DNA from: a virus
Direction: 5' to 3' (one strand)
Length of the DNA: 52,349 nucleotides
Virus record (IMG/VR): IMGVR_UViG_3300045257_000113
Span: 1 to 52,349 of that record
Below the pieces are notes generated by a model, which was not told the DNA's origin, searched no databases, and was given only the letters and a program-made list of their open reading frames with translations. Positions 15,289 to 49,933 of this stretch are shown here, piece after piece (the first letter of the stretch is position 1; each line of letters opens with the position of its first letter). The position numbers and the translations under genes were made by a program.

Positions 15289-15528
15289 ATGACCTGCAAA
15301 GAGTTTTGGGAGATTTCATCCAAGGGGCCTGTTGCCTTACTTCCTTCGGAGATTTTTTGGTGTTTTAGTCACTACGACTCTTGCAGTGCGTGTCGAAATG
15401 AAGTGATTAAGGCCAGGGACGCCACCACGGGAGCGGTCAGAGAAAGAATCGAATGGGAAGCGTCTTATTCTATCGCAAAAATGGCGCGAGCAAAGGCTTT
15501 AGATCCGGAGTTGCAACATGTCCGTTGA
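15289..15528 (+). CDS. Small zinc-finger protein, anti-sigma (ZAS)-like motif
   Basis: 79 residues from ATG 15289 (GAGGTGAGC upstream). Begins MTCKEFWEISSKG and contains HYDSCSACRNE, an H-x3-C-x2-C motif as in zinc-containing anti-sigma factors, which also typically begin MTCxEF. The N-terminal Cys could be the fourth ligand. A second phage gene on the other strand (37017-37259) has the same start and motif. A role in modulating host sigma factors is possible; it could equally be a structural zinc fold. Confidence 0.5.
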   Translation: MTCKEFWEISSKGPVALLPSEIFWCFSHYDSCSACRNEVIKARDATTGAVRERIEWEASYSIAKMARAKALDPELQHVR

Positions 15529-16837
15529 CTATGCCCTCGACGATCCTCTCCCGCCGACAGCCTTGATGCAGGATGCCCAGCAGGGTAACGTGTCGCAGAG
15601 CCAGGTCCCCGCCTTTGCGGACTCGCCTAGAGGCCCGACTGCCCCAGCTCAGAGTTTCGATCAGTACATCCAGTCTGCCCCCTTCGGCCAAGCCGACATT
15701 CAGCGCATCAACCAACTTCAGGCCGGCCTCTCGGGGCTCGACAAACAGGTGATGTCTGGAGAACTCCACCCCGTTGAGGCGCAGGCCCCAAAGCGAGAGA
15801 TCATGGGGCAGCTTGGCCCCTTGCTCCAAAAGAAGCAGCAATCCCAGCAGAAGATGATGCAAGAACAGGCGCAGCAGGCCATGCACGCGGCGGCGATGCA
15901 GGCTGGGGTTGAGAACGTCAACCGGCAGGTGCAGGCAGAGGCTATTCCTTCGCTCATCAGGACGCATACCGATCCGGTGACGGGCGAGACCATGCACCTT
16001 GTTCGAGATCACAAGGGGGATGTTGAGGAACTGAAATTTGAGCGGGAGGCGGCCAACAAGGACCGCATCACGCAGTCCCAGGCCGAGCCGGTTGCGGAAG
16101 AAGGACCGCCAGCCGGAACAGGAGATCAGCCAGACGGTTCGTTTATCCAGCGGATTCGCAACGGCGATCAGTACGAGTTTCACCGCTTCACACCGCGCCC
16201 AGGCGGCGGGTTTGAGACCCAGCCGATTGGGCAAGGCCAGCAAATGCCAGGCGGTCAACTCTCGGCTGGGGCGTTGCAAGAGATCTTCCGCCGTGCCGAC
16301 CAGGCTGTGCCTCAGCCCAAAGGTCAGGGGCCGGGAGGTAGGTTTCTTAACCCACGCATGGCGGCACTGGCGCAGCAACAGAGGAGAGCGGCAGTCGAGT
16401 CGCTGGCTCATTCGATGGTTAACGATGCCCAGCGCGTCCAGGAACATCAGCGGCACGAGACTTCGATGTCGGCAGAACGACAGCGGGCCGAAGCAGAGCG
16501 GCGTTCCCAGATGCAAGAAAAGTTGCAGGAGCAACAACGGCAGAAGCACAAGGACCATGTCGAGGACTACCTGAAGCACGAGAAGGCTTTGACGCGGACA
16601 GAGGATGGCAAGGTTCATTACCCGACGCATGAAGAGATCGTTCAGCACATGAAGAACGCCGAAAAGGCAAAGACGGAATTGGAGGGCCAGAGGCCGGCCG
16701 CCGAAGCTCCAGAGCAAAAACAGAAGTTTGATGATCTCGTGAAGACGCTGATCGCTGCCCCACCAGCTCCTACGGTGCAACCCAAACCGCCGTCAACGCA
16801 TGTCATTCGAGATCCGGGCGAAATGCCTGGGTTCTAG
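15518..16837 (+). CDS. Coiled-coil internal virion protein
   Basis: 439 residues, start overlapping the preceding gene by 11 bases with GGAG inside it. The N-terminus is disordered (Pro, Gln, Asp rich); residues 65-150 are a long Gln/Met/Lys coiled coil (LLQKKQQSQQKMMQEQAQQA); residues 155-260 form a small folded part; residues 280-400 are another Arg/Gln/Glu coiled coil (RQRAEAERRSQMQEKLQEQQ). It directly precedes the 1654-residue protein, as gp14/gp15-type core proteins precede gp16 in T7-like phages. Likely an ejection-core component. Confidence 0.5.
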   Translation: MSVDYALDDPLPPTALMQDAQQGNVSQSQVPAFADSPRGPTAPAQSFDQYIQSAPFGQADIQRINQLQAGLSGLDKQVMSGELHPVEAQAPKREIMGQLGPLLQKKQQSQQKMMQEQAQQAMHAAAMQAGVENVNRQVQAEAIPSLIRTHTDPVTGETMHLVRDHKGDVEELKFEREAANKDRITQSQAEPVAEEGPPAGTGDQPDGSFIQRIRNGDQYEFHRFTPRPGGGFETQPIGQGQQMPGGQLSAGALQEIFRRADQAVPQPKGQGPGGRFLNPRMAALAQQQRRAAVESLAHSMVNDAQRVQEHQRHETSMSAERQRAEAERRSQMQEKLQEQQRQKHKDHVEDYLKHEKALTRTEDGKVHYPTHEEIVQHMKNAEKAKTELEGQRPAAEAPEQKQKFDDLVKTLIAAPPAPTVQPKPPSTHVIRDPGEMPGF

Positions 16838-16840
16838 CAC

Positions 16841-19800
16841 ATGGACGACACCGACACACAAGTTGCTGATTTGCCGGCTCAGACGCCAGAAACTCCTGAA
16901 CCACCACAGGGGGTATTCTCTGCCAAGCCCTGGGAAGAAGTTGCCCCCAAGTTCAAAGAGGCGTTTCCTGCTCTTGACGAAGGCGAGATGAAGCGGCGTT
17001 ACGAGCAAGCTACGCTTCTTGCCCAGACCAGAGCACACTTCAATCAGCAAGGTTATAACCCCGGCGAGTTTGTTGCCAGGCGTGGACTGCCGTTCTCGTC
17101 GGCGGCAATTGGCGCCATGACGGATAGCGATTACACGTCTGCCAAGAAACGCTTCGAGGAAGGCAATCCGCAAAAGGGCGATGAGTTGTCCATCGCCAGT
17201 TATGAGCGATTGAAACGGCTGGATGCGGAAACAGAATCAACTGCTGGAGGATTTGCGGCATCCAAGGCTTTGCAAGGCGGGGCTATCGCGGGCGAGTATT
17301 TTGCTGGCATGGGGGCACTCAGGGCACTCGGCTTATTGCCGCAAGCGGCTGCTGGGGCGAGCCTGGCTTCCCGCGCTGCCAACTTTGCGGGACGGGCCGC
17401 TGCAACAACGGCCACGATGCCTTCAGCCATCCTTCCGGAATGGACCCAGAAGAACATTGAAGCGGGACGAAGTGCTACGGATCTCACTGGTCTGCCCTCG
17501 GCCGTCGCCAAGGGCCTCCTCTTTAATGCCATTCTCGAAGGCACTGGTGGCATAGCAAACAAGCTGCTTCCTGGCGGTGGATTAGCGAGGGCCGCAGGCA
17601 GGGTTCCTACTGCCGCTGCCGGTGGTGTCGCGGCTCAGCAAGTTGCCGACTTTGCTGGCGGCATGATGCAATATGCTTCCGGATTGAAAGGCGACTTCGG
17701 GGCTTTCTTTGAAGGCGACTGGGGAGATGCCGGGAAACGCTTGGCAGCACAGTTTGTTGGCTTTGCCGCCTTTGCTGCCCTTCACGAAGGCTTGGCGGCT
17801 GGCAGACGAGTGCTCGACGAGGCCAAGGAAGAGTTCCAGAAGCAGAAGGGGCTTGGATACTCGTCGGAAGAAGCCCTTCGGTTGGCATACAAGAAGCTTT
17901 CACCGCAAGACGCCTACCGCCGCGCATCTGCCGACATGCACCCGGACAGAAATCCTGGCGAGTCGGAAGCGGCGACTAAGGCAACCAAGGATCTAAACGG
18001 GGCCTATGACGACTACAAGGCGGCCGTCAAGAAAGGCGATGAGGCAGGTGCCAAAGCGGCGGCTGGGCGGATAGATGCGATCCATCAGGCTTGGAATGCC
18101 CGTCCCAAGCCGCAAGCTGCCCAGAAGCCCTCTGAACAAGCCCCGGAAGCGACTGGTGGCGAACAGTACCACGGAATGACCGTCAAAAGGGTCAACGCCG
18201 AAGAGTACCGCCAGCAGAGTCGTTCGGACCAGGAATTGGGGACGGCCAAGGTCCACGGCAACGTAATCTACCTGTCTGACGAGGTGGAACCGGGCAAAGA
18301 TACGGCTACGGTGATGCACCAGGCACTTCTTGAGCATAAGGCTGAGTCGAGAGGGCTGTCCGACGATCAAGCCGAACAGCTGATGATTGCTCATGAGCAC
18401 CACGAAGGCAAAAGGGGGACCGGCGCAGGGGAAGGGAAGGTGGTCCCCGCTAGCGTTTATGCAGATGGCGGAAACGGTGTTGGAAGAACTCAGACTGGCC
18501 AGGTGGTCCGGCTTGTCGATGGAGCAGAGGTCCGAGTTAAGCTTGATCCAACATTCGTTGAGGGAGGCAATCACCAGGCTCTCAAGTACATCCCCAAAGG
18601 AGAAATCTGGGTCGAAAAGACGCTGGCGGGTAAACACCCGCGCGAAGTGGCACTTACGGTTCACCACGAAGCGCTCGAAAGCGAGTTGATGCGCAAGGGT
18701 GCGTCCTACAAGAAGGCTCACCAGAAGGCTTCGCTGTCGGAGTTTGCGCTGCGAAGCGGTCAACAAGGTACGATGACTTCTCAACCACCGCCAACCGCAG
18801 CCGCTCCGGCAGCACCTCACCCCCTGGACGCCTTGGCCAAACGAGCGCAGTCAGGCCGTCCAGTTTCCATTGATGAAGTTGCCGACGCTGCCGGTCTTAA
18901 CGACCGCGAGTACGACCTGCTCATGGAAATGGGTAAGGGCAAGAGGCTGGAAGAGGCAGGACAGGCTATCAGCCTCAATAACCGGCAGCGGGCTCATCAA
19001 ATCGCTGGCGACATTGCCGAGAAGCTTGGCCTAGACCGCTCCCTGTCCAAACAGGTCGAGGATGCCGTTGCCGAACCTGGACTCAAGAAAGATGCGATCA
19101 AGCCCTTGGAAGGTGCAGCTTTCTCCGAAAAGGACATGAGGACCGATCCGGCACTTAAAGCAGAATTGAAACGCGCCAAGGCTCCCCGAAGTGAAGAGGA
19201 ACGCATCTTACAAAGGATGAACAAGCTTGGTCGTAGAATAGAGAGAGAGGCCCGCCAAAACGGCGGTGATTTGACCGATGAACAACACGAACGGTTTGCA
19301 TCCGAGAGTCAACGCCTTGCTGGCGAGCTTGAAGCAGCACGCGCCGAACGAGGGACCATCGAGCCGTCACCCGTTCGACGTGAGCCCAGCGGCCAATTAC
19401 AAGGCGGCAACCCGCCTCTTGGGGCTGCGGGTCCGCAACAAGAAGATCTCGGGCAGCAAGGGGCCGGCAATCCCCCAAGCCGTGCTCAAGCCCCCCGTAA
19501 CAAGCTAAGACAGCCAGGCCAGAAGGGGTCGGGCCGCAAGGGTCAACTTGACATCGGGGCCATCTTCGCCGCTATCAAGGGACCGCCCAAGCCCCAACCC
19601 GCACCAGTCCCGCCATCCAATGAGCCACGTCTGAAGTTCGGCCTACAGCGGACCTTCCCGGCACTGACGAAGCTCAGCCCGCGCACGGGGGCAGCCTTTG
19701 CTCGAGCGGCGAACGCCAAGGCCACGCTGGAGGCAACCAAGAACTACATGGAGCATGCGCTGAAGATAGCCGGCGAGACCATCGCTCACATGAAAGAAGA

Positions 19801-21805
19801 CAGCCCCAAGGACCTTCTGAGCGGCGCTGCGATTATGCAGACCCGCATGGATCTGGAGAGAGCAGCGGCGCAACAGGACGTGGCTCGCCTTCACCAGCAA
19901 CTCAACCAGAAGATCCAGGCCCTTATCGCCAAGAACCCCGCCATCACCCCAGCAGAGATCGCCACGGCCTTGAAGAACGAGATGGCGGCCTTTCAGGAAG
20001 CCAGGAGGCACGCTGGCACTGTCGCGGACCTGATAGGCAAGCCAGGTTCCCCTTTACAGACGCGAGCCGATTATAACCGCGTTATGGGGCACCTGGGGAC
20101 ATTTTTGCAGGATGCTCGCGGGATCTGGACGCCGAAGGTCGAGGGTTACTTCACGGACCTAACAGGACATCCGCCGTCCGGGCGCAACCAGATTCCCGGC
20201 TTTCCCGTCACGGCCATAGCGGTAGACGACCAGGGTCAGCCGCTTGGCAAGGGCGTGGTCCGGACTGGTAACACACTGGCCAATGAACGGCTGCGCAAGG
20301 GTGGCTACACGAAACACGCGGAACTTGAAGAAGACGCCTACGATCTCAGTCTCAAACGGATGATGGAGCGAACGCTTTCCCAGCGCATTCCTGAAGCAAT
20401 GCGAGCTGTGGCCGTGCGGACAGGAGTGCAGGAGGGCGTCATCAAGGTTGTCAAGAAAGGGGAGCAGCCGCCTCAGTTGTGGGAAGAATTAATGCTTAAG
20501 CCCGCCAAGGGCATTCCCGAATTGCCTGCTGGCGAGCGATACTTTACGCATCCCGGCGCGAAAAAGGACATAACACAAGCCCTGAACATTGAGTCAACAG
20601 CAGGTGAGAAGGTTGGCGAAGCGATCAGCACCGCTCTCGGTGGTGGCACAATCCCCGGCAAGTTCCTCGGACGCCTGACCCAGATAACCTTACTCACCCC
20701 GACCGAACTCATGGTCCATCTTGGCGGGAATATCCCCACGGCGCTGTTCAAGGAAGGGATGGGTTTCCCGGTATCCAGCGTCGGCCGTTGGCTGGTGGGC
20801 ATGTGGCACGCCTTCAAGGGAGATCCGCAGTTTCTTGAGAAGCTGATGAAGGTTGCCGAGATCGGAGCATCCTTCGAGCATCGAGAAGGCACAGGACTCT
20901 TTGCCAACCATCCCCTCGACCCGACCTATCTAATCAATAAGGTCTCGACTGCCCTCATCGACTTGGGGCAGGACTCGATGCGCGTCATGGCGGCGGATGC
21001 CTGGGACCGCATGGTAGCGTCTGGGCGCAAGCAACAATCGGAGAGTCTCAAGCGAGACTTCATCAACCAGATCCTTGGCAATTATTCCAAGAATGGCGGG
21101 AATGCTTTTCTGACGCTGCTCAAGGAATTGCACATTCAGCCCTTCGCCACGGCCGCGAGCACGTTCACCGAACAGGGCGTGCGAGCAGGCTACTTCGTCG
21201 GTAACTCGCCGAATCCGACGTGGGCCAAGTTCCTGCTCAACACAGCCTTGCAAATGGCCAAGCTTGCCCCTCTGTTTGTTCTGGGACCTTTCCTGAACTG
21301 GAAGAATCACGGCGAGTGTTTTCCCGCCGATGCCCCGCCATTTGCCATAAAGACTGGAGAAGGCAAGTACGTGGACCCTCTGGGCGTCTTTGGTGGTCGT
21401 CGCGGGTATCGAGCAACAGGGGCCGAAGCCTTAGCAGAGGGCAAGCCAGAGCGAGCATTGGGCGACATCGGTCATGCTGGCATTCATTTGGTTGCTGGCC
21501 CTGCTCCTGATTTCGTCAAGACCGCCATGACAGGCAGCAATCTCCAGGGTACGCAGCTTGCGGCCAAAGTCTCGACGGCAAAGACCGTCACCGGAATCAA
21601 CAAGGCTGCTCAGCGTGGATCGCCGCCAGCCAACTCCAGCCAGGCATGGGAAAATCTGAAGGCTGCCATCATTAACTCCAACTCGCTGCTGAAGACATTC
21701 TTCCCCCAGACGACGACCGAGAAGAACAAGTCTTTGAGCGAGCGGTTCCAGGGGATGATTCCCTTTGGAGAAAAGGGACACGCGCCCAAGGCAAAGAAGC
21801 GGTAA
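16841..21805 (+). CDS. Giant ejection/internal virion protein with embedded DnaJ domain
   Basis: 1654 residues, the longest gene here. N-terminal helices are followed by Gly/Ala-rich amphipathic segments (about 125-320) that could insert in membranes. Residues about 352-395 (YRRASADMHPDRNPGE, then ATKDLNGAYDDYKAA) form a J-domain with intact HPD tripeptide. Two His/Glu-rich segments follow (VMHQALLEHKAE near 490; LTVHHEALESELMRKG near 605). A LuxR/sigma region 4-like helix-turn-helix runs from LNDREYDLLMEMGKGK to RAHQIAGDIAEKLG (about 685-725). A long coiled coil covers 950-1050, and a hydrophobic segment lies near 1465-1487. Giant multi-domain proteins at this position are ejected into the host in short-tailed phages. 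Domain calls are from motifs; the overall role is inferred. Confidence 0.65.
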   Translation: MDDTDTQVADLPAQTPETPEPPQGVFSAKPWEEVAPKFKEAFPALDEGEMKRRYEQATLLAQTRAHFNQQGYNPGEFVARRGLPFSSAAIGAMTDSDYTSAKKRFEEGNPQKGDELSIASYERLKRLDAETESTAGGFAASKALQGGAIAGEYFAGMGALRALGLLPQAAAGASLASRAANFAGRAAATTATMPSAILPEWTQKNIEAGRSATDLTGLPSAVAKGLLFNAILEGTGGIANKLLPGGGLARAAGRVPTAAAGGVAAQQVADFAGGMMQYASGLKGDFGAFFEGDWGDAGKRLAAQFVGFAAFAALHEGLAAGRRVLDEAKEEFQKQKGLGYSSEEALRLAYKKLSPQDAYRRASADMHPDRNPGESEAATKATKDLNGAYDDYKAAVKKGDEAGAKAAAGRIDAIHQAWNARPKPQAAQKPSEQAPEATGGEQYHGMTVKRVNAEEYRQQSRSDQELGTAKVHGNVIYLSDEVEPGKDTATVMHQALLEHKAESRGLSDDQAEQLMIAHEHHEGKRGTGAGEGKVVPASVYADGGNGVGRTQTGQVVRLVDGAEVRVKLDPTFVEGGNHQALKYIPKGEIWVEKTLAGKHPREVALTVHHEALESELMRKGASYKKAHQKASLSEFALRSGQQGTMTSQPPPTAAAPAAPHPLDALAKRAQSGRPVSIDEVADAAGLNDREYDLLMEMGKGKRLEEAGQAISLNNRQRAHQIAGDIAEKLGLDRSLSKQVEDAVAEPGLKKDAIKPLEGAAFSEKDMRTDPALKAELKRAKAPRSEEERILQRMNKLGRRIEREARQNGGDLTDEQHERFASESQRLAGELEAARAERGTIEPSPVRREPSGQLQGGNPPLGAAGPQQEDLGQQGAGNPPSRAQAPRNKLRQPGQKGSGRKGQLDIGAIFAAIKGPPKPQPAPVPPSNEPRLKFGLQRTFPALTKLSPRTGAAFARAANAKATLEATKNYMEHALKIAGETIAHMKEDSPKDLLSGAAIMQTRMDLERAAAQQDVARLHQQLNQKIQALIAKNPAITPAEIATALKNEMAAFQEARRHAGTVADLIGKPGSPLQTRADYNRVMGHLGTFLQDARGIWTPKVEGYFTDLTGHPPSGRNQIPGFPVTAIAVDDQGQPLGKGVVRTGNTLANERLRKGGYTKHAELEEDAYDLSLKRMMERTLSQRIPEAMRAVAVRTGVQEGVIKVVKKGEQPPQLWEELMLKPAKGIPELPAGERYFTHPGAKKDITQALNIESTAGEKVGEAISTALGGGTIPGKFLGRLTQITLLTPTELMVHLGGNIPTALFKEGMGFPVSSVGRWLVGMWHAFKGDPQFLEKLMKVAEIGASFEHREGTGLFANHPLDPTYLINKVSTALIDLGQDSMRVMAADAWDRMVASGRKQQSESLKRDFINQILGNYSKNGGNAFLTLLKELHIQPFATAASTFTEQGVRAGYFVGNSPNPTWAKFLLNTALQMAKLAPLFVLGPFLNWKNHGECFPADAPPFAIKTGEGKYVDPLGVFGGRRGYRATGAEALAEGKPERALGDIGHAGIHLVAGPAPDFVKTAMTGSNLQGTQLAAKVSTAKTVTGINKAAQRGSPPANSSQAWENLKAAIINSNSLLKTFFPQTTTEKNKSLSERFQGMIPFGEKGHAPKAKKR

Positions 21806-26058: not shown

Positions 26059-26385
26059 GTGGCCTCGTTCATAATCCTCTTTGTACTGCCGTCAATGAGC
26101 GACATCAGCCGTTTCCCCAGTCCTGCCGAGTGCTCGGCGTACGCTTCGTTTTACCACGAACGAATCGCCTGGACTAAATACCACATTTTCCCCACGCTGG
26201 CCGAGAAAAGAAGGCTAGTATACGAACTCGAAGATGAGCGGGAGTATTGGTACAAGTTCTTTGCCGCGCGTGACGTGCAGTTGCAGGATCATTGCCGCCG
26301 TGAAGCCTTGCTCTGGCTCTGGGTTCGATTGGGGCCGGATTACGGCAAGGCTCTCAGGGCCACTAAACCAAAGGAGACTGTCTAA
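26059..26385 (+). CDS. Hypothetical membrane-anchored protein
   Basis: 108 residues from a GTG with GGAGTAACAG upstream. The first dozen residues are hydrophobic (SFIILFVLPSM), too short for a normal TM span but possibly a signal or anchor; the rest is a charged, Tyr/Trp/Arg-rich helical domain (ERRLxYELEDEREYWYKFFA-like region). The stop overlaps the start of the peptidase gene (TAATG), so they are co-translated. Confidence 0.5.
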   Translation: MASFIILFVLPSMSDISRFPSPAECSAYASFYHERIAWTKYHIFPTLAEKRRLVYELEDEREYWYKFFAARDVQLQDHCRREALLWLWVRLGPDYGKALRATKPKETV

Positions 26386-27542
26386 TGCAAAAACTTTTGG
26401 CGTTCCTGGCACTTCTTTTTCTTCCCGGTCTGGCGGCTGCTCAGCACGGCAAGGGCTACAAGCCCAATCCGCCAGCGGTGCGGGCTCAGATGCACGCAGA
26501 CGCATTTGCCCGACACGGCAACCGCATCGCCGCTCTTGTGCGCCAGACGGCACCGCCAGCCGAGTTCGATTGCGTGACTCTGGGATGGGTGCCACCGATC
26601 CGAGATCAAGGCCAATGCGGTTCTTGCTGGCTGGTGAGTGCTGCCGACTGCCTGACGTGCTGCTTCATCAAGGGCGGGCTGGGGAAGGCAGACGATAGCT
26701 TCAAGATCAGCGACCAGTACGGAATGGACTGCCACACGGACTGGGGCGGGTGTAACGGCGGTGATGAGGCAAATCCCATCGACTGGTGCAAGAAGACCGG
26801 CTTCCCTGCTGAGCGCTGGGTGAACAACGGCACTCCTCAGAACGATTACCCAGCGTACACGGCCTCGGAGAGTTCTTGTCGGCTGAAGCAAGGCACGAAG
26901 CTTTGGCAGATAGCCGACTGGGGCTACGCTACCTCAGACCAATCGCAGCGTGGCGTCACCGTGGCCGAGTTCAAGGCCGCGATGTACCAGTATGGGGTGC
27001 TCTCGGTAGCCCTGGACGCGGGCGGTGAGTTCGGTAGCTACTCCGGGCAAGGCATCATTAACAGCATGGGCGACAGCATCGACCATGCGATTACGGCCGT
27101 GGGCTGGTCAGATGCGAAACAGGCTATTCGCGTTCGGAACCAGTGGAACGTCGATTGGGGCGACAAGGGGTATGGCTGGATTGCCTACTCTGCCGTGCCG
27201 CACATCGTCGAGGTCATCTGGGTATCGGCCGGGGTGATACCCCCCAAGCCGCCTGACCCGCCAAATCCGCCTGGGCCTGGGGGCACGATCACGCTCAGCG
27301 GGGACACCAAAGCTGGGACGTACCAGCTTGTTCCGTCCGGTAGTGAGATCGTACCGGCAGGGACGAATGCGAAACTGCTTGAACTGCAAATGAAGATCAA
27401 GGAACTCGAAGACTTGCTGAACCCGCCAAAGACAAAGCAGACCAAGGAACCACCAAAGGTCGAGCCAGCCCCGGACAAACCGGCGCCGGTCAAGAAGGAC
27501 GCTATGATCGACAGGCGGCCTCGGTACTTCTTGGCGGCATGA
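26385..27542 (+). CDS. Secreted papain-like (C1A) cysteine peptidase
   Basis: 385 residues with AAAGGAGACTGTCTA upstream. Residues 1-19 (QKLLAFLALLFLPGLAAA) are a Sec signal peptide. The catalytic pattern of the C1A family is complete: oxyanion Gln75 and nucleophile Cys81 in RDQGQCGSCW, the GCNGGD motif, His234 in IDHAITAVGW and Asn252 in RNQW, followed by GDKGYGWIAY. The propeptide is short (about 45 residues), lacking a recognisable I29 inhibitor. A Pro-rich linker (PPKPPDPPNPPGPGG) leads to a 100-residue C-terminal region with a short coiled coil and Lys/Pro tail. Cleaves peptide bonds outside the cytoplasm. Next to holin-like genes and with no other endolysin visible, it may serve lysis or act on host surface proteins. 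Confidence 0.9.
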   Translation: MQKLLAFLALLFLPGLAAAQHGKGYKPNPPAVRAQMHADAFARHGNRIAALVRQTAPPAEFDCVTLGWVPPIRDQGQCGSCWLVSAADCLTCCFIKGGLGKADDSFKISDQYGMDCHTDWGGCNGGDEANPIDWCKKTGFPAERWVNNGTPQNDYPAYTASESSCRLKQGTKLWQIADWGYATSDQSQRGVTVAEFKAAMYQYGVLSVALDAGGEFGSYSGQGIINSMGDSIDHAITAVGWSDAKQAIRVRNQWNVDWGDKGYGWIAYSAVPHIVEVIWVSAGVIPPKPPDPPNPPGPGGTITLSGDTKAGTYQLVPSGSEIVPAGTNAKLLELQMKIKELEDLLNPPKTKQTKEPPKVEPAPDKPAPVKKDAMIDRRPRYFLAA

Positions 27543-37024: not shown

Positions 37025-37259
37025 CGGTCTTCCTTTCCTGGGTAACGGCCAGGGCTTCGGGATCGGCCATGATCGCTGCTAAGTCTTGAGCAGCTTGAAT
37101 CGCGTATCCCAAAATCTGCAACGCTGAACGGGTCGCCAAAAGGCTGTCGCAAAATCGCAGGCATGACCGGCAACCCATCGTGTGCCGAATCATGGCGGCA
37201 ATTGTAGCCCTGCTTTGGTTGCCCTTACCGCGCATCGCTTGGAACTCTTCACAGGTCAT
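37017..37259 (-). CDS. Zinc-finger protein with anti-sigma (ZAS)-like motif
   Basis: 80 residues, ATG with AGGAGGCAATCCC upstream. Begins MTCEEFQAMRGKG and contains RHTMGCRSCLRFCDSL, the H-x3-C-x2-C motif of zinc-binding anti-sigma factors, with the N-terminal Cys as possible fourth ligand. The C-terminus is a helix (AAQDLAAIMADPEAL). The plus-strand gene at 15289 has the same opening residues and motif. It could modulate host or phage sigma usage early in infection. Confidence 0.55.
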   Translation of the reverse strand: MTCEEFQAMRGKGNQSRATIAAMIRHTMGCRSCLRFCDSLLATRSALQILGYAIQAAQDLAAIMADPEALAVTQERKTDA

Positions 37260-38119
37260 GGGATTGCCTCCTGGGGCTGTTTGAGCGGTTTCTTTCGGAC
37301 CGATCCTAAAGTTTTTTCGTATTCACTGGGCGGCAAGTGCCGCATGCTGTCGATCTTCAGCGCGGCACAGGCTCGCTTCAGGCCATCAGGGGTGATCTCC
37401 CGCTTTTCGATTTCGGCCGAGAGTTCGTCGTACTGGGCCTGGGTGATGTATTGGCCGTTCTCGATGATCTCGCCATCGCTGGTTGTCGCTGGTGTGGCCT
37501 GCTCGATCTTACCTGTCATCTCGCCGAGCAGCTTGCGGAACTTCGGGTAGAACTCTTCGAGGGCGGCTCGGAGCTTGGCCGTGAAATCGTCCTCAGTCAC
37601 GCGCACGAGCAAAGCCGGCAAGCCTGGGGCGTAGGAAACGAAGTCTACCCACTTCCGCCCGGTAACGATCAATTCACCGTGAACCTGGGGCTTGTACTCG
37701 GCTGGAAGGATCTGCCCCGCCATGAGGTACTCGGCATGAGTCGAAGCATTCGGACATTTCAGCTCGAGCGCTCCGTCACCGTTTACCAGTCCGTCTGGAG
37801 AGCAGCCGAACCGCTTGTCATCCGTCATGCAGAATCCACCGTTGGTGACATTGACGCTGTGATGAGCGGCATACCACCGACGCGCCGACTCTTCGCACTC
37901 TTGCCCCCAGCGCACGGCCCGATTGGTAAACGACTCGGCGTGTTCTGGATAGTAGGGGCTCGTCACGTCGCCGATCAGTTGGGCGGCATACTTCGTCCAC
38001 TGCTTCGATAACTCGCCCTTGGCCGGCGTGATGATCTTGTCGAACTCGCTCGCCGTGGGGATGCCGCGGCGAAGCGTATGCCAGGTTGGCGAGCCTTGCT
38101 CAACGTCGTAAAAGATCAC
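37256..38119 (-). CDS. YqaJ/lambda-type recombination exonuclease
   Basis: 287 residues from GTG 38119, GTGA-coupled to the annealing-protein gene; the same frame extends upstream but has no better start. The restriction-endonuclease-like core is visible: LRRGIPTASEFDKI near the N-terminus, WGQECEESARRWYA, then FGCSPDGLVNGDGALELKCP with catalytic Asp109 and the Glu119-x-Lys121 pair. Generates 3' single strands from double-stranded ends for the annealase. The C-terminal 70 residues are a helical extension. Confidence 0.85.
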   Translation of the reverse strand: MIFYDVEQGSPTWHTLRRGIPTASEFDKIITPAKGELSKQWTKYAAQLIGDVTSPYYPEHAESFTNRAVRWGQECEESARRWYAAHHSVNVTNGGFCMTDDKRFGCSPDGLVNGDGALELKCPNASTHAEYLMAGQILPAEYKPQVHGELIVTGRKWVDFVSYAPGLPALLVRVTEDDFTAKLRAALEEFYPKFRKLLGEMTGKIEQATPATTSDGEIIENGQYITQAQYDELSAEIEKREITPDGLKRACAALKIDSMRHLPPSEYEKTLGSVRKKPLKQPQEAIP

Positions 38120-38877
38120 TTCTTGCCTGCCTTCCTCTTCGCCGCCTGCCACTCGGCGCGGTACTGCCCCATGATCGTCTCGTATTGAACCTTGGTCAGA
38201 TTCTCCAAGGCATCGAGCTTGAGCCACTTGAAATAGTCTGCCCGGTCAAAGGCAAGCGTGCGGAGAAGGTCGTCAACTTCCTTGAGTTGGTTTTCATCCG
38301 CCATTGCTGTGCGGTTTCCATCATTGTCCTCGCCGGCAATCGTCAGGTTGAAGATCCAGGTCACAAGCCGGCGCTGCCCGTAGCTCCCTGTTGAGACGGC
38401 CCCTTGCACTGCGTTCATTCCGCCAATCGGGTTCCCCTTGGGACCGATCCCATCAACCGGCAGATCAACCTGTGCGTGGTCGATGTGGCCTTCGACGTGG
38501 CGGATCGTACAAATCGTCCGCTTGTGATTTGGTAGCGGCGAGTCGGCCTCGCTAAATGACAGGCTGAAGCCATGCCTGGTGTAAACCGGCTTGGCTACCT
38601 TCTGGACCGTCTCCAGCTTGGCGTACATGGATTTGGTTTGGTCGTTCGTAGCGTCACGGACAACGATTTCCATTTCGGCCTGGGCGTCACGCATCGAACA
38701 GTTGTAGGCGGCCAGTGCACGAGCCGCTTCGAGCCGCTCATGCAAGCCGACGAGTTTTTCCAGTTCAGCGGCCGGCAGTTTCAATTCGACGGCTCGTTCG
38801 ATAATCGCCAGGCTGCCCTTCTGATGGACAGGCGGCTTGTCGGGCAAGGCATCAGTTACTTCTGGTTCTACTGTCAT
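38116..38877 (-). CDS. erf: ERF-family single-strand annealing protein
   Basis: 253 residues from ATG 38877 (GAGGCCAACCC upstream). The ERF superfamily core reads MRDAQAEMEIVVRDATNDQT, then YAKLETVQKVAKPVYTRHGF and SLSFSEAD, followed by HVEGHIDHAQVDLPVD and GSYGQRRLVTWIFNLTIAGE (the conserved YGxRxx segment), ending with an acidic C-terminal region. Anneals complementary single strands produced by the adjacent exonuclease, giving phage recombination and possibly genome circularisation or concatemer formation. Confidence 0.85.
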   Translation of the reverse strand: MTVEPEVTDALPDKPPVHQKGSLAIIERAVELKLPAAELEKLVGLHERLEAARALAAYNCSMRDAQAEMEIVVRDATNDQTKSMYAKLETVQKVAKPVYTRHGFSLSFSEADSPLPNHKRTICTIRHVEGHIDHAQVDLPVDGIGPKGNPIGGMNAVQGAVSTGSYGQRRLVTWIFNLTIAGEDNDGNRTAMADENQLKEVDDLLRTLAFDRADYFKWLKLDALENLTKVQYETIMGQYRAEWQAAKRKAGKK

Positions 38878-38894
38878 GGGTTGGCCTCGTGGGG

Positions 38895-39215
38895 TTAGGC
38901 GGTTGGTTGTTCTTGTAACGCTTTGACTTCGTGATCGGCGAGAATCTTGCCGTAGCGCAGAAGCGAGTCGATCATCCATTCATAGCCGCAGAACCCAGCC
39001 GACTTCTTGCGGATCTGCGCTGCGTCCGATTTGCTGACTTCGCGAACTCGGACGCACGCACACCAGCCATCGGACCATCGGTAAGTGTGCGAGCCGATTA
39101 ACTCGGCTGGTATGTCACGCAGACTGCGGATCACAGCCCATAGTCGATCTTCACCGGACCATTTGCCATTCCACGACGGCGCGGAAGGCATGGTCAACGA
39201 AAAACAAACGAGCAT
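38895..39215 (-). CDS. Hypothetical protein
   Basis: 106 residues, ATG with GGAGGCCAACC upstream (same site sequence as the annealing-protein gene). Contains AVIRSLRDIPAELIGSHTYR and WCACVRVREVSKSDAAQIRK, ending in a helical, Lys/Glu-rich part. Preceded by the tRNA-like element at 39240-39309. No family recognised. Confidence 0.5.
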   Translation of the reverse strand: MLVCFSLTMPSAPSWNGKWSGEDRLWAVIRSLRDIPAELIGSHTYRWSDGWCACVRVREVSKSDAAQIRKKSAGFCGYEWMIDSLLRYGKILADHEVKALQEQPTA

Positions 39216-44593: not shown

Positions 44594-45054
44594 TTGACAA
44601 ACTCGTCACATCGTTTGCTGAAATCGTGCAGGACTGTATTCTAGATCTGGGGCGACTTCGGCCGACTCTGGTAGAGCAGATGCTTAGAGCCGATCCGGTG
44701 CTCTGCGTCCTTTTGAAAAAGGAACGGGTGTGTTTTGACGAAGGAAGGCTTGAAGATCCTATTTGTGCCACAGTCAAGTATCGCGTTTTGGCGCGACGGA
44801 TTCACAATGCCGCGCAGTGTGTAAGGATTTTGAAAGCTAGGCAGCGCAGGGCGGTTCGGCTTCTCATGGGAAGCTTGCGTGATTCGTTCTTGGTTGCTTG
44901 CCCCGGTGCCGATCCCTGGCAGTATCGCTTATGGATTTCCCGGACATGGATGATGCAAACGGTCGTGGACTATGATAGCGCAGTTGAGGTTTTGGTAGAC
45001 TGCGTTTATGAATTCCGCAGAACAGACGCGGTATCACCACCTGGTTCCGCGTGA
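44590..45054 (+). CDS. Hypothetical helical protein upstream of terminase
   Basis: 154 residues from ATG 44590. Helical, Arg/Leu/Val-rich with several Cys (IVQDCILDLGRLRPTLVEQM, VLCVLLKKERVCFDEGRL, ARRIHNAAQCVRILKARQRR). Its 3' end overlaps the terminase start by 47 bases. Position makes it a candidate small terminase, but size and sequence give no firm support. Confidence 0.5.
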   Translation: MIDKLVTSFAEIVQDCILDLGRLRPTLVEQMLRADPVLCVLLKKERVCFDEGRLEDPICATVKYRVLARRIHNAAQCVRILKARQRRAVRLLMGSLRDSFLVACPGADPWQYRLWISRTWMMQTVVDYDSAVEVLVDCVYEFRRTDAVSPPGSA

Positions 45055-46852
45055 TCCTCTGGAGAACGCGCTGTGGCGGCGAAAGCTGCACCGAAAGTGC
45101 CGGGAGCACCCTGAGTATCGCCGGGCGGTCCAGGAGATGTGCCGGCGAGACATCCTGTTCTTCGTCAATGCGTTCGTGTATCAGTTCAATCCTAAAGCAA
45201 AGGGGGACGAGCCCAAGTTTGGCCCGTTCTGCACCTGGGACTTCCAGGACGAAGCCCTGCTTAGTTTGGTGGAGTCAATCCACGACCAGCAGGACACGGT
45301 GATCGAGAAGTCGCGGGAGATGGGGGCGTCATGGATCTGCCTGATCGTAATGCTCTGGTATATCTTGTTCCGTCCGGGAGTTCAATTTTTATTGGTCTCA
45401 CGGGATGTGGACTCTGTAGACTGCAAGAGTCCGGACAGCCTCTTTTGGAAATTGCGCTACATGCTCAGGCACCTGCCAGATTGGTTGGCGCCCCGCATGA
45501 CGGATCAGAGCATGTACTTATGCAATGAGATCCTTCAGAGCTACATCACTGGGGAAGCGTCCACGAAAAAGGCGGGCATCGGCGGGCGAGCCACAGCGAT
45601 TTTCCTGGATGAGTTCAGCCTAGTTAACGATGCCCAAGAGATCTACGATCACACGTCGGATACGGCCTCCTGTCGGATCTTCAATTTCACCCATAGGGGA
45701 GAGAACACATGCGCGAGCCGGTTGTGCAAGATGCCGTTGATCAAGAAGATCGTGATGCACTGGTCACAGCATCCCAGGAAGAATCCGGGGCTTTATCGGT
45801 ACAATGCCGAAAAGCGGGCTACCGAATCGCTGGACTCACATTACGAGTATCCGCCGGATTTCCACTTTGTTATGGATGGGACACCCGTTGGCGGGCCTTT
45901 CCCCGGACTGAGGAGTCCGTGGTACGACAAGGAAGTTCCCCGGAAGGGGTCGAACCGGGCGGTGGCGATGGACCTGGACATCAACCCCGAAGGGGCGACG
46001 AGCCAGGTCTTTGACCCGTTGGTGATAGCACAGCTTATTCGCTCGGGAGCTAGACCGCCCTCGTGGGAAGGAGATTTGATTTATGATGACAAAACTGGCG
46101 AGCCAGAGCGCCTCGATAAGCGAGCTGGCGGACTCATTAAGCTCTGGTGTCCCCTGGACGCTTATGGTCGCCCAGGCAAAGCCAGGTATATATTCGGTAC
46201 GGATACGAGCACAGGCAAAGGCGCTTCGCCGACGGTGTTTTCGGTTCTTAACGAGGACACCGGCGAGAAAGTCCTCGAATACACCAACTCGCGCATCTAC
46301 ATCCACCACGCAGCGCCCTTAGCCGTGGCGCTCTGCAAGTTTTTCTACAATGCCTTGATGATCTGGGAAGACAAGGGGCCGGGAGAGACGTTCGGTTTGC
46401 TTGTCCTCGATTTGGGATACGGCAACTGCTATATTCGCCAGGACGACCATCGGCTGGACAAGAAGATGTCCAGTGGGCCGAAATACGGCTGGGTGCCCAA
46501 TCCTGCCAATATACGGACCTTGATAGAAGACTACTCCGAAGCTCTCAGAAGGCGCGAGTACGTCAACTACTCAGCCAGGGCCTTGCAGGAATGCAACGCC
46601 TTCATGTACGACAAGAGCGGGTACGTGATGCACTCAGGGATGAAGACGGGGGACGAGTCGGGCATTGGGGTCAACCACGGGGATCATGTGGTGGCGGACG
46701 CGCTGACGTGCAAGTTGGCCAAGCGGAAGGCGCGAGTGAAGAAAAACGAACCTCGGCCGGTTCCTCTGCTATCCTTGGAGTGGCGCAGGGATTATGCTAA
46801 GAGGCAGGCAGAGGGCGAAGAGGCGGCCATTGTTTGGGATGCGATAGCATAA
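45008..46852 (+). CDS. terL: Terminase large subunit
   Basis: 614 residues. ATPase motifs: Walker A-like VIEKSREMGASW (about 97-108), Walker B IFLDEF (about 197-202) with catalytic Glu, and a following SDTASCRIFNFTH coupling region. The nuclease part contains FGTDTSTGKGASPTVFSVL (about 394), with the metal-binding Asp, and later VNHGDHVVADAL with further Asp. It starts inside the preceding gene. The motor that packages DNA at the portal; circularly permuted ends of the contig would fit headful packaging by such an enzyme. Confidence 0.9.
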   Translation: MNSAEQTRYHHLVPRDPLENALWRRKLHRKCREHPEYRRAVQEMCRRDILFFVNAFVYQFNPKAKGDEPKFGPFCTWDFQDEALLSLVESIHDQQDTVIEKSREMGASWICLIVMLWYILFRPGVQFLLVSRDVDSVDCKSPDSLFWKLRYMLRHLPDWLAPRMTDQSMYLCNEILQSYITGEASTKKAGIGGRATAIFLDEFSLVNDAQEIYDHTSDTASCRIFNFTHRGENTCASRLCKMPLIKKIVMHWSQHPRKNPGLYRYNAEKRATESLDSHYEYPPDFHFVMDGTPVGGPFPGLRSPWYDKEVPRKGSNRAVAMDLDINPEGATSQVFDPLVIAQLIRSGARPPSWEGDLIYDDKTGEPERLDKRAGGLIKLWCPLDAYGRPGKARYIFGTDTSTGKGASPTVFSVLNEDTGEKVLEYTNSRIYIHHAAPLAVALCKFFYNALMIWEDKGPGETFGLLVLDLGYGNCYIRQDDHRLDKKMSSGPKYGWVPNPANIRTLIEDYSEALRRREYVNYSARALQECNAFMYDKSGYVMHSGMKTGDESGIGVNHGDHVVADALTCKLAKRKARVKKNEPRPVPLLSLEWRRDYAKRQAEGEEAAIVWDAIA

Positions 46853-46862
46853 GGAGTTGACC

Positions 46863-47039
46863 ATGAATCCGGAGAAGAGAAGTCCGCAGATCACGGGCGA
46901 TGAGCAGGTTATGCTTAACGTGGCGATGGAAGTGCTCAAGATGGCGAGGACGGATTTAGGCGATTTGGAAGAAGCGGCCGAAGGGTTTCTTTGCCAGATG
47001 TTCGCAAGATTAGAGCGACCAGGAAAGCGCGATGAGTGA
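46863..47039 (+). CDS. Small helical protein between terminase and portal
   Basis: 58 residues from ATG 46863 (AAGGAGTTGACC upstream). Helix-rich: GDEQVMLNVAMEVLKMARTD, then LGDLEEAAEGFLCQMFARLE. GTGA overlap with the portal gene. Function unknown. Confidence 0.55.
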   Translation: MNPEKRSPQITGDEQVMLNVAMEVLKMARTDLGDLEEAAEGFLCQMFARLERPGKRDE

Positions 47040-48892
47040 AGAAGGTCAGCCGGGAAATAGATGTCAGTCGTCTTTGTCAGGCCGTGCAGCGTTCCCGGTT
47101 GGCGCTACGCAAGCCTCGCGAGGTCATGCGCGACATCGCCCGCCAGGTGGCCGGCGAATACTACTCCGAAGAAGGCGCCAAGAAGCAAGTCATCCTGAAC
47201 CTCCTGTCGATGTACCAGTCGATCATCGGCCGCACCCTCATCCCGCACAACCCGCGGTTCATGCTCTCGACCTTCCAGAAGTCGATCAAGCCAGCGGTAT
47301 CGGCTATGCAGGGCTGGACGAACAAGGAGATCGAGCGGATCAAGTTTGCCGAGACAGCCCGGCGCATCGTGACGAGTGCGCTGTACTCGGTGGGGTTCGG
47401 CAAGGTGGCGATTGCCAGTCCTGCCGATGCGGCGCACGCTGCCTGGAACCTTCAGGCGGGTGACGTGAACTTCTGGGACATCGACCTCGACGACATGGTT
47501 TGGGACATGCACGCCCGCAAGTGGTCTGAGGTTTCCTTTATCGGCCATCGCATCCGGGTTCCCCTGGATGCGGTCAAGGACTCGAAGCTTTATGACAAAG
47601 CCAGAAAATTTCTTGAAGCATCGAACGATCCGATTTTCAATGCCGAGGGCGGTGATGAGCGAATATCAATGCTAGCTCGGACCTACCTCGAAGCAGACGG
47701 GCCGGAATTTCAGGATATGGTGGATTTATGGGAGATCTACCTTCCCCGCCACCGAACCGTCCTCACGCTGGCTGAGGGGCAATTGACGGGCGCCTACGCC
47801 ATGAACACGGCCAAGATGGGTGCATTGCGCGAGCAGGCGTGGGTTGGGCCAGATCGTGGACCCTACCATGTCCTGGGCTACGGGATGATCCCTGGAAACA
47901 TCCTGCCCAAGGGGCCGATGCAGGACCTCTTCAACCTGCACAGTACGACGAACATTGCCTTGCGCAAGTTAGTCCGCGCCATCGACCGCTTGAAGCAGGT
48001 CACGATGGTTAGGAATGGCATGGACGCGGACGGCAAGAGTGTGATCGAGGCCAACGATGGTCAGGCCATCGGCGTGCAAGACCCGTCGAGCATTGTGCAA
48101 GTGGTCATGGGAGGTGAGAATGTCCAGCTTCTTACCGGCATCGCCAATGCCTTCAAGGACTGGTTCGATTTCCTGGGAGGCAACCTATCGCTCCTGGGTG
48201 GCCGCGCTCCTCAGAGCCGGACTGCCACACAGGACAAGATGCTCGATGAAAACGCCAACGCGGGGGTCGCGGACCTCCAGCAGACGACGACGGACTACAT
48301 CTCGGACATAGGGCGGTCGATGTGCTGGTTCTGGTGGAACCACCCCAAGAAGGTGATGAAGGTCAAGCACTCCGTACCGGGCCTGTCGGACATGGAGATC
48401 ACGCGGCGGGTTTTTCCAGCCGGCGCCAATCGTCCCAACGGTCAGCCGCGGTTGCTTCAGCGCAATGGGCGGTTTGAGGATTTAGACATCGCGGTAGACC
48501 CGTACTCGCTCCAGCACTCCAGTCCGCAGCAGCGCTTCCAGCAGCTCAGTGCGGTGGTCGAGCGGATCATGCTGCCGATGCTTCAACTCATGGTCCAGCA
48601 GGGCAAGAACATCGACATCGACTTCTTCTTGAAGAAGGCTGCCGAGTACCTCGACCAACCGGACCTTGGCGAGTTGGTCAACATTACCGAGCCGCCGCAG
48701 ACGGATGAGGCTCCAGCAAGCGGCGGCCAACCGAAGATGCCGCAGAACACGAACCGAGAGTATACTAGGAACAACGTCAGTCAGCGCACGCCGCAGAGTG
48801 ATAGCCAGAACTTGACGGCTTCGATGCTGGGAACCGACATGGGTGGCAGTCCGAACAGAAACGGTAAGACTGCGGGGGCAGGTGTGGGATGA
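47036..48892 (+). CDS. Portal protein
   Basis: 618 residues from GTG 47036. Typical P22/T7-class portal features: helical N-terminus with GEYYSEEGAKKQVILN, DVNFWDIDLDDMVWDMHARK (wing region), then the long helix LFNLHSTTNIALRKLVRAID, a glycine-rich tunnel-loop area GGNLSLLGGRAPQSRTATQD and a disordered Gln/Asn-rich C-terminus. Forms the dodecameric channel at one capsid vertex; directly after terminase as expected. Confidence 0.85.
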   Translation: MKKVSREIDVSRLCQAVQRSRLALRKPREVMRDIARQVAGEYYSEEGAKKQVILNLLSMYQSIIGRTLIPHNPRFMLSTFQKSIKPAVSAMQGWTNKEIERIKFAETARRIVTSALYSVGFGKVAIASPADAAHAAWNLQAGDVNFWDIDLDDMVWDMHARKWSEVSFIGHRIRVPLDAVKDSKLYDKARKFLEASNDPIFNAEGGDERISMLARTYLEADGPEFQDMVDLWEIYLPRHRTVLTLAEGQLTGAYAMNTAKMGALREQAWVGPDRGPYHVLGYGMIPGNILPKGPMQDLFNLHSTTNIALRKLVRAIDRLKQVTMVRNGMDADGKSVIEANDGQAIGVQDPSSIVQVVMGGENVQLLTGIANAFKDWFDFLGGNLSLLGGRAPQSRTATQDKMLDENANAGVADLQQTTTDYISDIGRSMCWFWWNHPKKVMKVKHSVPGLSDMEITRRVFPAGANRPNGQPRLLQRNGRFEDLDIAVDPYSLQHSSPQQRFQQLSAVVERIMLPMLQLMVQQGKNIDIDFFLKKAAEYLDQPDLGELVNITEPPQTDEAPASGGQPKMPQNTNREYTRNNVSQRTPQSDSQNLTASMLGTDMGGSPNRNGKTAGAGVG

Positions 48893-49320
48893 GCGAAGCA
48901 GACGTGACCCGCGATGCCTTGGACGAGTTCTACAAGGGCTTGTACAAGCGAGAACGCAACACCGGCAGGGCCGGCAACGGCAACCGTCCCTGGTCCAAGC
49001 CGCTGGCTTCGGAGGCCCTAGCAGTCAACCCCAAGCAGATCAAAGAGGCGGTGGAAGATGCTCGTGTTAAAGGCGTACCCACTGACTTTGATGGGGCTGG
49101 AAGGCCACTCTTTCGAGATCGGAAGCACCGCCGTCAGTACATGCAGGTATACGGGTTTTATGATCGGGACGGTGGTTATGGAGATGCCCAGCGTGGAACC
49201 ACCAGAGGGCAGGACAAAGAGCCTGATATTCCGGATTATCGGCATCTTGATGAGGCTGCTGCGCCGCCCGGTGTAGAGGTTCGCAAGGAAGGGGTGAGGT
49301 ACTTCATCGCCAATGGCTAA
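48889..49320 (+). CDS. Hypothetical head-region protein
   Basis: 143 residues, ATGA-coupled to the portal gene. Basic, polar sequence with NPKQIKEAVEDARVKGVPTD and RRQYMQVYGFYDRDGGYGD. Compact alpha/beta domain of a type commonly found after portal genes. Possibly a head-assembly accessory. Function unknown. Confidence 0.55.
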   Translation: MSEADVTRDALDEFYKGLYKRERNTGRAGNGNRPWSKPLASEALAVNPKQIKEAVEDARVKGVPTDFDGAGRPLFRDRKHRRQYMQVYGFYDRDGGYGDAQRGTTRGQDKEPDIPDYRHLDEAAAPPGVEVRKEGVRYFIANG

Positions 49321-49933
49321 CGAGATCCATTTCACTGGCAGCCTGTCGGTCTTCAAGCCTGCTGTCATGGCGCAGGCTACGGGGATGTCGTTCAATGACC
49401 TGATCGCCTCAATGACCGGCAACGTCGCTATCGGCCCGACCTCGATCCTTGTTGCCTTGGCGGGCACGGCTATTCCGCTTGGCCAAGTCACACAGCCCCA
49501 CTGGGCGGCCTTCTACTCGAACCCGCTCTACAACACGATCACGCAAGGCGCAGCCACGACGATCACGGGCGCCGCCAACAACGGCTCCGGACTGGTGCGG
49601 ATAACCGACACGGCTCACGGCTACATCACCGGCGACTTCGTGACGATTGCTGGTGTGGGTGGAACGGTAGAGGCCAACGGCAATTGGCCGATCACGGTCA
49701 TTACGGCGAACACGTTCGATCTGGTGGGCAGCGCCTTTGCAGTCGCATACACGAGCGGCGGGACAGCGGTTCTTAATTCTTCGATCCAGCTTAGGAACGG
49801 GTCTGCGGGAGCGAGCTTGGGGCAGTTGTTCCCTGGAGAAGCTGCTATTTTGCCGCTTCTGGTGGGCTCCACGCCTTACGCTTACGCTAGCCCGACGCTT
49901 CAGAATTTGGACTACGCAATCTTTTCATGGTGA
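49313..49933 (+). CDS. Structural protein with FCCH-like beta domain
   Basis: 206 residues, overlapping the upstream gene by eight bases. Residues 90-160 read LVRITDTAHGYITGDFVTIA, GVGGTVEANGNWPITVITAN then TFDLVGSAF, the short beta-barrel module widespread in phage structural proteins (annotated as FCCH-like). The rest is beta-rich and neutral. Probable minor head or decoration protein. Confidence 0.6.
   Translation: MANEIHFTGSLSVFKPAVMAQATGMSFNDLIASMTGNVAIGPTSILVALAGTAIPLGQVTQPHWAAFYSNPLYNTITQGAATTITGAANNGSGLVRITDTAHGYITGDFVTIAGVGGTVEANGNWPITVITANTFDLVGSAFAVAYTSGGTAVLNSSIQLRNGSAGASLGQLFPGEAAILPLLVGSTPYAYASPTLQNLDYAIFSW

Follow-up and report, generated by a model that had tools for sequence, protein, structure and literature searches.

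Genome and gene context

The window analysed here is the whole 52,349-base record of an uncultured virus, a phage of the short-tailed type, and it is the source of a gene for a giant protein of 1654 aa. The coordinates of this gene, its parts and the genes used for comparison are given in Table 1. The giant gene follows genes whose products match an SU10-type adaptor and a Gly-rich protein of the tail-fibre type, and in relatives, too, it lies downstream of the portal gene. In six compared phages, the gene immediately before the giant gene is comparable to the Gln-rich one. No known ejection protein family was matched when the giant protein was searched against PHROGs, Pfam and a phage collection. 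From the gene order, the size, the Gln-rich or coiled-coil-like upstream gene of the compared phages, the Ala/Gly-rich N-terminal domain and the conserved ends, we infer that the product is a podovirus ejection (internal virion) protein. The original prediction had described a giant ejected protein; the size stands as stated, and ejection is our reading of the features just listed.

Downstream of the structural genes, a papain-family cysteine protease (PF00112, 102 bits) is encoded at 26385-27542 (+). Adjoining the portal gene, positions 49313-49933 (+) encode 206 aa with a match to the FCCH domain of ubiquitin-activating enzyme E1 (31.3 bits, above the cut-off), probably a small beta-barrel with a structural role. 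A YqaJ-type recombinase nuclease beside an ERF-type annealing protein (37256-38227 and 38116-38979, both on the - strand) makes up a phage recombination pair.

Table 1. Coordinates of the giant gene, its subregions and the compared loci (nucleotide positions refer to the window unless a locus is named).
Feature	Position	Strand	Basis
Gln-rich protein, 439 aa, directly upstream of the giant gene	15518..16837	+	ORF
Giant protein, putative ejection-type (internal virion) protein	16841..21805	+	ORF, 1654 aa
Conserved N-terminal region, residues 1-340, Ala/Gly-rich	16841..17860	+	Family alignment
Helical element KEEFQKQKGLGYSSEEALRLAYKKLS, residues 329-354, at the place of J helix I	17825..17902	+	Family alignment; model helix 342-352
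J-like segment, residues 355-398 (helix II 355-365, HPD loop 366-374, helix III 375-398)	17903..18034	+	Pfam DnaJ, viral J HMM, phmmer vs PDB, AlphaFold2
HPD tripeptide, residues 367-369	17939..17947	+	Sequence
Long helix after the J segment, residues 401-419	18041..18097	+	AlphaFold2; J helix IV unmatched in sequence
Module, residues 544-657	18470..18811	+	Separate small ORF in two related phages
Terminase large subunit	45008..46852	+	PHROGs
Portal / head-tail connector protein	47036..48892	+	PHROGs phrog_332; query for relatives
Small ORFs matching residues 544-657	G013:50681-51028; G006:44290-44583		Protein comparison
G015 GGDEF and sigma-70 region 4, residues about 628-689 and 822-867	L102:1318-7305	-	Pfam

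Sequence evidence for a J-domain

The string HPDRNPG occupies residues 367-373 of the giant protein, starting at nucleotide 17939. For the full-length protein Pfam returned a single family, DnaJ (PF00226), with residues 357-390 aligned to profile positions 19-51 of 63 at 20.1 bits (E 6.7e-4); the same profile scored 24.8 bits when the entire virus record was searched and 27.0 bits (E 5e-6) on the 102-aa fragment of residues 329-430 alone. All of these scores (20.1-27.0 bits) lie under the curated gathering cut-off of 27.8 bits, with significant E-values. When phmmer was run against PDB sequences, ranks 1-17 were all J-domain proteins (best E 0.0041). A profile built from 36 J-domains of other viral contigs, picked up by the HPDRNPG DNA pattern (hereafter the viral J HMM), assigned residues 356-398 a score of 30.8 bits. 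Across 5000 shuffled versions of the giant protein the maximum was 9.8 bits, and across 9,996 real stop-to-stop frames from the window and from other loci (1.3 million residues in all) the top non-J frame reached 10.7 bits, so the resemblance is far above chance. Because the members of the viral J HMM were chosen for HPDRNPG, part of its score is this string itself, a selection bias of which the Pfam and PDB matches are free. Used as a query, the J segment found no relatives in viral contigs and two weak phage matches only. Judged by these comparisons, homology of residues about 355-398 to J-domains is statistically clear, which confirms the observation of a J-domain-like stretch first placed at about residues 352-395.

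Completeness and predicted structure

Numbered as in E. coli DnaJ, the residues kept in the segment are A24, Y25, K26 (as R), R27, H33, P34, D35, R36, N37, G39, K48, A53 and Y54, and those changed are I21 to P, R22 to Q, L28 to A, F47 to T and V56 to D. Among the basic residues of helix II that contact Hsp70, Y25, K26 (as R) and R27 are thus retained and R22 is lost. Going by the known DnaJ-DnaK interface positions, most of the residues likely to face Hsp70 are kept.

Canonical helix I (YxxLG) and helix IV are unmatched in the segment, the viral J HMM match stops at residue 398, and helix III carries one extra residue. At the place of helix I, the family alignment pairs KEEFQKQKGLGYSSEEALRLAYKKLS with a similar element, LKxxGLsxeeA, of relatives that have no HPD. 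An alternative MAFFT alignment matched KEEFQKQKGL to helix I and opened an insertion of eight residues in helix II; the segment may either have lost helix I or carry an insertion in helix II.

AlphaFold2 run without an alignment (pLDDT 67) predicted helices at residues 342-352, 355-365, 375-398 and 401-419, with HPD in the 366-374 loop. Given an alignment of 33 viral J-domains, which biases the model toward a J-domain, it returned identical helices with pLDDT mostly >90 across about residues 352-419. Foldseek searches of the PDB with both models had no J-domain among their best 50 matches, two-helix hairpins being difficult for Foldseek, and searches of viral models gave nothing convincing and no J-domain by name; none of the matches had E <0.6, in runs made without a positive-control fold. 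The outcome named beforehand as refuting, a region lacking the helix II/III hairpin with HPD in its loop, did not occur at the level of secondary structure, where a helix, HPD loop and helix are predicted; the J fold is unconfirmed, because Foldseek returned no J-domain even for the alignment-built model. The earlier description as a DnaJ domain with intact HPD holds for the HPD but not for a full domain: with helices I and IV unmatched, several core residues changed and no J fold found by Foldseek, the segment is a compact or degenerate J-domain rather than a textbook one.

Relatives and the variable middle region

Searching viral contigs, genome contigs and phage records with the whole giant protein gave no relatives; these were gathered via alignment of the portal protein (80 found). 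Six related phages with long records encode a homologous giant protein of 1569-2139 aa (measured stop-to-stop) whose N- and C-terminal parts are conserved (26-37% identity in the main matched stretches of these parts, 21-28% overall), and two further records also carry the family. The middle of the protein, residues about 340-930, varies among family members. The J segment stands at its start, immediately behind the strongest N-terminal hydrophobic peak (residues 301-319, by hydropathy). PF00226 found no DnaJ match in any of the six homologues, so the J segment would be dispensable for the core job of the protein. A decayed J-domain at the equivalent site in all relatives was considered and rejected, as the viral J HMM gives them about 1 bit at most.

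The middle region of the homologue in one of these relatives, G015, matches GGDEF (27.3 bits) and sigma-70 region 4 (Sigma70_r4, 31.3 bits), both over the Pfam cut-off, which may be modules injected for signalling and transcription. Residues 544-657 of the 1654-aa protein correspond to stand-alone small ORFs of 168 and 153 aa in G013 (41% identity) and G006 (38%), respectively, and also match phage records weakly; a by-eye impression that they form a metal peptidase found no support in Pfam or PDB. In our preferred reading, the J segment would be an exchangeable module for docking DnaK, set in a protein of the ejection type.

Residues about 677-745 (18848-19240, +) resemble a helix-turn-helix aligned with the sigma-70 region 4 of G015. 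As a candidate this element ranked third among the real sequence and 2000 shuffles, which is not significant, and its family-wide conservation is unsupported for the 1654-aa protein, being clear in G015 only.

A second J-domain in a giant protein

A PF00226 search of 66 records related through the portal or giant protein returned one match, in G026, a distant phage whose portal is 30% identical to that of the window. The match (39.0 bits, above the cut-off) covers residues 370-418 of a 1695-aa protein, reads HPDTGG and begins at profile position 6, thus taking in part of helix I. In both giant proteins, the J-domain starts at about residue 355-370, after an Ala/Gly-rich N-terminal part. The G026 giant gene also has a coiled-coil-like gene upstream, and the distance from the portal gene to the giant gene downstream of it is ~20 kb in both phages (with the window taken as circularly permuted). 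Homology of the two proteins was evaluated and is unsupported (hhalign probability 5%).

The 36 viral J-domain ORFs sampled by HPDRNPG are 106-391 aa long; among the 14 sampled by HPDTGG, only the G026 protein (cut by the locus end) and one ORF of 880 aa exceed 400 aa. J-domains within giant virion-type proteins are real yet rare among the sampled ORFs. A literature search, which covered few subscription journals, found none in an ejection protein. Both results agree with the original remark that J-domains in internal virion proteins are rarely noted.

Comparison with known systems

Like the J-domain of DnaJ/Hsp40 (PF00226; E. coli DnaJ residues 2-70), the segment has the helix II core AYRR, the HPDRN loop and the A-Y pair of helix III; it differs in having no match to helix I or IV, a one-residue insertion in helix III and replacements of F47 and L28, and in being embedded in a 1654-aa virion-type protein. 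A further comparison is Rki (Gp057w) of phage RB43, a J-domain protein with demonstrated stimulation of the DnaK ATPase (PMC3486835). Rki is likewise phage encoded, with an intact HPD, key helix II/III residues and a weak helix IV, but is a separate protein of 237 aa outside any giant virion-type protein (PMC3486835).

The giant protein resembles podovirus ejection proteins of the T7 gp16 class in its very large size, the position of its gene after tail genes, the partner gene upstream, a mosaic exchange of domains and the refolding expected beyond the portal channel (PMC8954989), and differs in showing no detectable match to PHROGs families. A review of ejection proteins emphasizes domain swapping and refolding after portal exit and mentions no J-domain (PMC8954989). 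The polyvalent proteins of phages and conjugative elements are also large, thought to enter the cell with DNA and built of exchangeable domains (PMC5512222); the main text of the paper describing them makes no mention of a J-domain (PMC5512222). None of the Pfam domains of polyvalent proteins was found in the giant protein or the homologues searched.

A parallel for a J-domain beside a membrane passage that brings Hsp70 to an incoming chain is offered by Pam18/Tim14 and Sec63, which load Hsp70 at membrane channels. These belong to the cellular import machinery and any homology is limited to the J-domain, so the parallel is an analogy only.

Proposed role and alternatives

We propose that the giant protein is an ejection-type virion protein with conserved N- and C-terminal parts and lineage-specific modules in its variable middle. 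The first module past the N-terminal region would be the compact J segment, consisting of helix II, the HPD loop and helix III, with a family helix at the position that J helix I would occupy. As the giant protein emerged in the host cytoplasm, the HPD hairpin would dock on host DnaK and trigger ATP hydrolysis, and DnaK would clamp the partly unfolded emerging chain, helping its inward pulling and refolding. We infer in this way the virion location, the ejection, the folding of the J segment, the binding of DnaK and the action on entry.

That the J segment recruits host DnaK upon entry, aiding import and refolding, is a tentative reading, to which we give slightly less than an even chance. Docking on entry is favoured because the segment is carried in cis by a protein that has to refold in a new host, and because the Hsp70-facing residues are those kept. 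It gains support from J homology well beyond both null maxima, from an HPD placed in the loop between two helices even by the alignment-free model, from the position right after the N-terminal hydrophobic peak, opening the variable middle, from relatives with other middle modules (G015) and from the second J case in G026. It is weakened by the sub-cut-off Pfam score, the loss of helices I and IV and of core residues, the lack of a J fold in Foldseek and the six homologues without a J-domain. The interpretation first offered is partly supported: the J-type sequence with HPD between two predicted helices stands, while the ejection of the protein and its recruitment of DnaK are putative. If true, a DnaK-docking module in a giant ejection protein would point to a host energy source for entry, would bear on how such proteins cross the envelope and refold, and would widen the range of phage J-domains beyond small separate cochaperones to proteins of the virion type.

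A broader and rather doubtful version, by analogy, is that some short-tailed phages use host DnaK as an entry motor through a J-module of their own in an ejected protein. The HPD hairpin, once in the cytoplasm, would load DnaK onto the incoming chain, perhaps helping DNA to follow. If so, this use of a J-domain near residue 360 would have been invented independently in two giant proteins that share no detectable homology.

Recruitment of DnaK on entry must be weighed against a role in the producing cell, in which the J segment would bring DnaK to the newly made giant protein for solubility and capsid entry and be inert after ejection. A giant, low-complexity, Ala/Gly-rich protein would need help in folding, and for jumbo phages, the predicted task of J-domain proteins is to draw host Hsp70 into folding and assembly (PMC7824862). 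The six homologues, comparable in size and architecture, nonetheless manage without the segment, which moreover lies in cis in a virion-type protein, whereas the other sampled viral J-domains are mostly in small separate proteins; we consider this role unlikely.

Ejected proteins enter the cell in few copies and DnaK is abundant, so the copies per cell would be too few to titrate it. This makes it improbable that the segment is an injected effector that sequesters or redirects DnaK, for example by blunting a DnaJ/DnaK-dependent defence sensor or altering heat-shock control, even though the middle region has the look of a site where effector-like modules (GGDEF, sigma-70 region 4) are exchanged. 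There are precedents for such targets, as Rki binds DnaK and stabilises sigma-32 (PMC3486835) and phage sensing by bNACHT25 requires DnaJ and the contact of its J-domain with DnaK (PMC12169576).

The missing helix I, the changed core residues, the sub-threshold Pfam score and the Foldseek results would suit a relic, either a decayed J-domain or a helical hairpin of J origin now put to structural use, in both cases unable to work with DnaK. HPDRN and the majority of the basic residues in helix II persist, though such surface positions should drift early in a relic, and G026 has a J-domain at the same place; a relic is, in our view, just as improbable as an effector. Chance resemblance, an HPDRNPG string between two helices without J ancestry, could draw on a match of only ~44 residues that lacks F47 and helix I, but is very improbable given 30.8 bits against the shuffle and real-frame maxima (9.8 and 10.7).

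Other viral J-domains

The 880-aa viral ORF of the HPDTGG sample (L307:7562-10201, +) has its J-domain at the extreme C-terminus. In Tetrasphaera phage TJE1 (NC_019930), a J-domain frame scoring 51 bits lies at L240:3860-4588 (+), and the record assigns no gene to the matched stretch.
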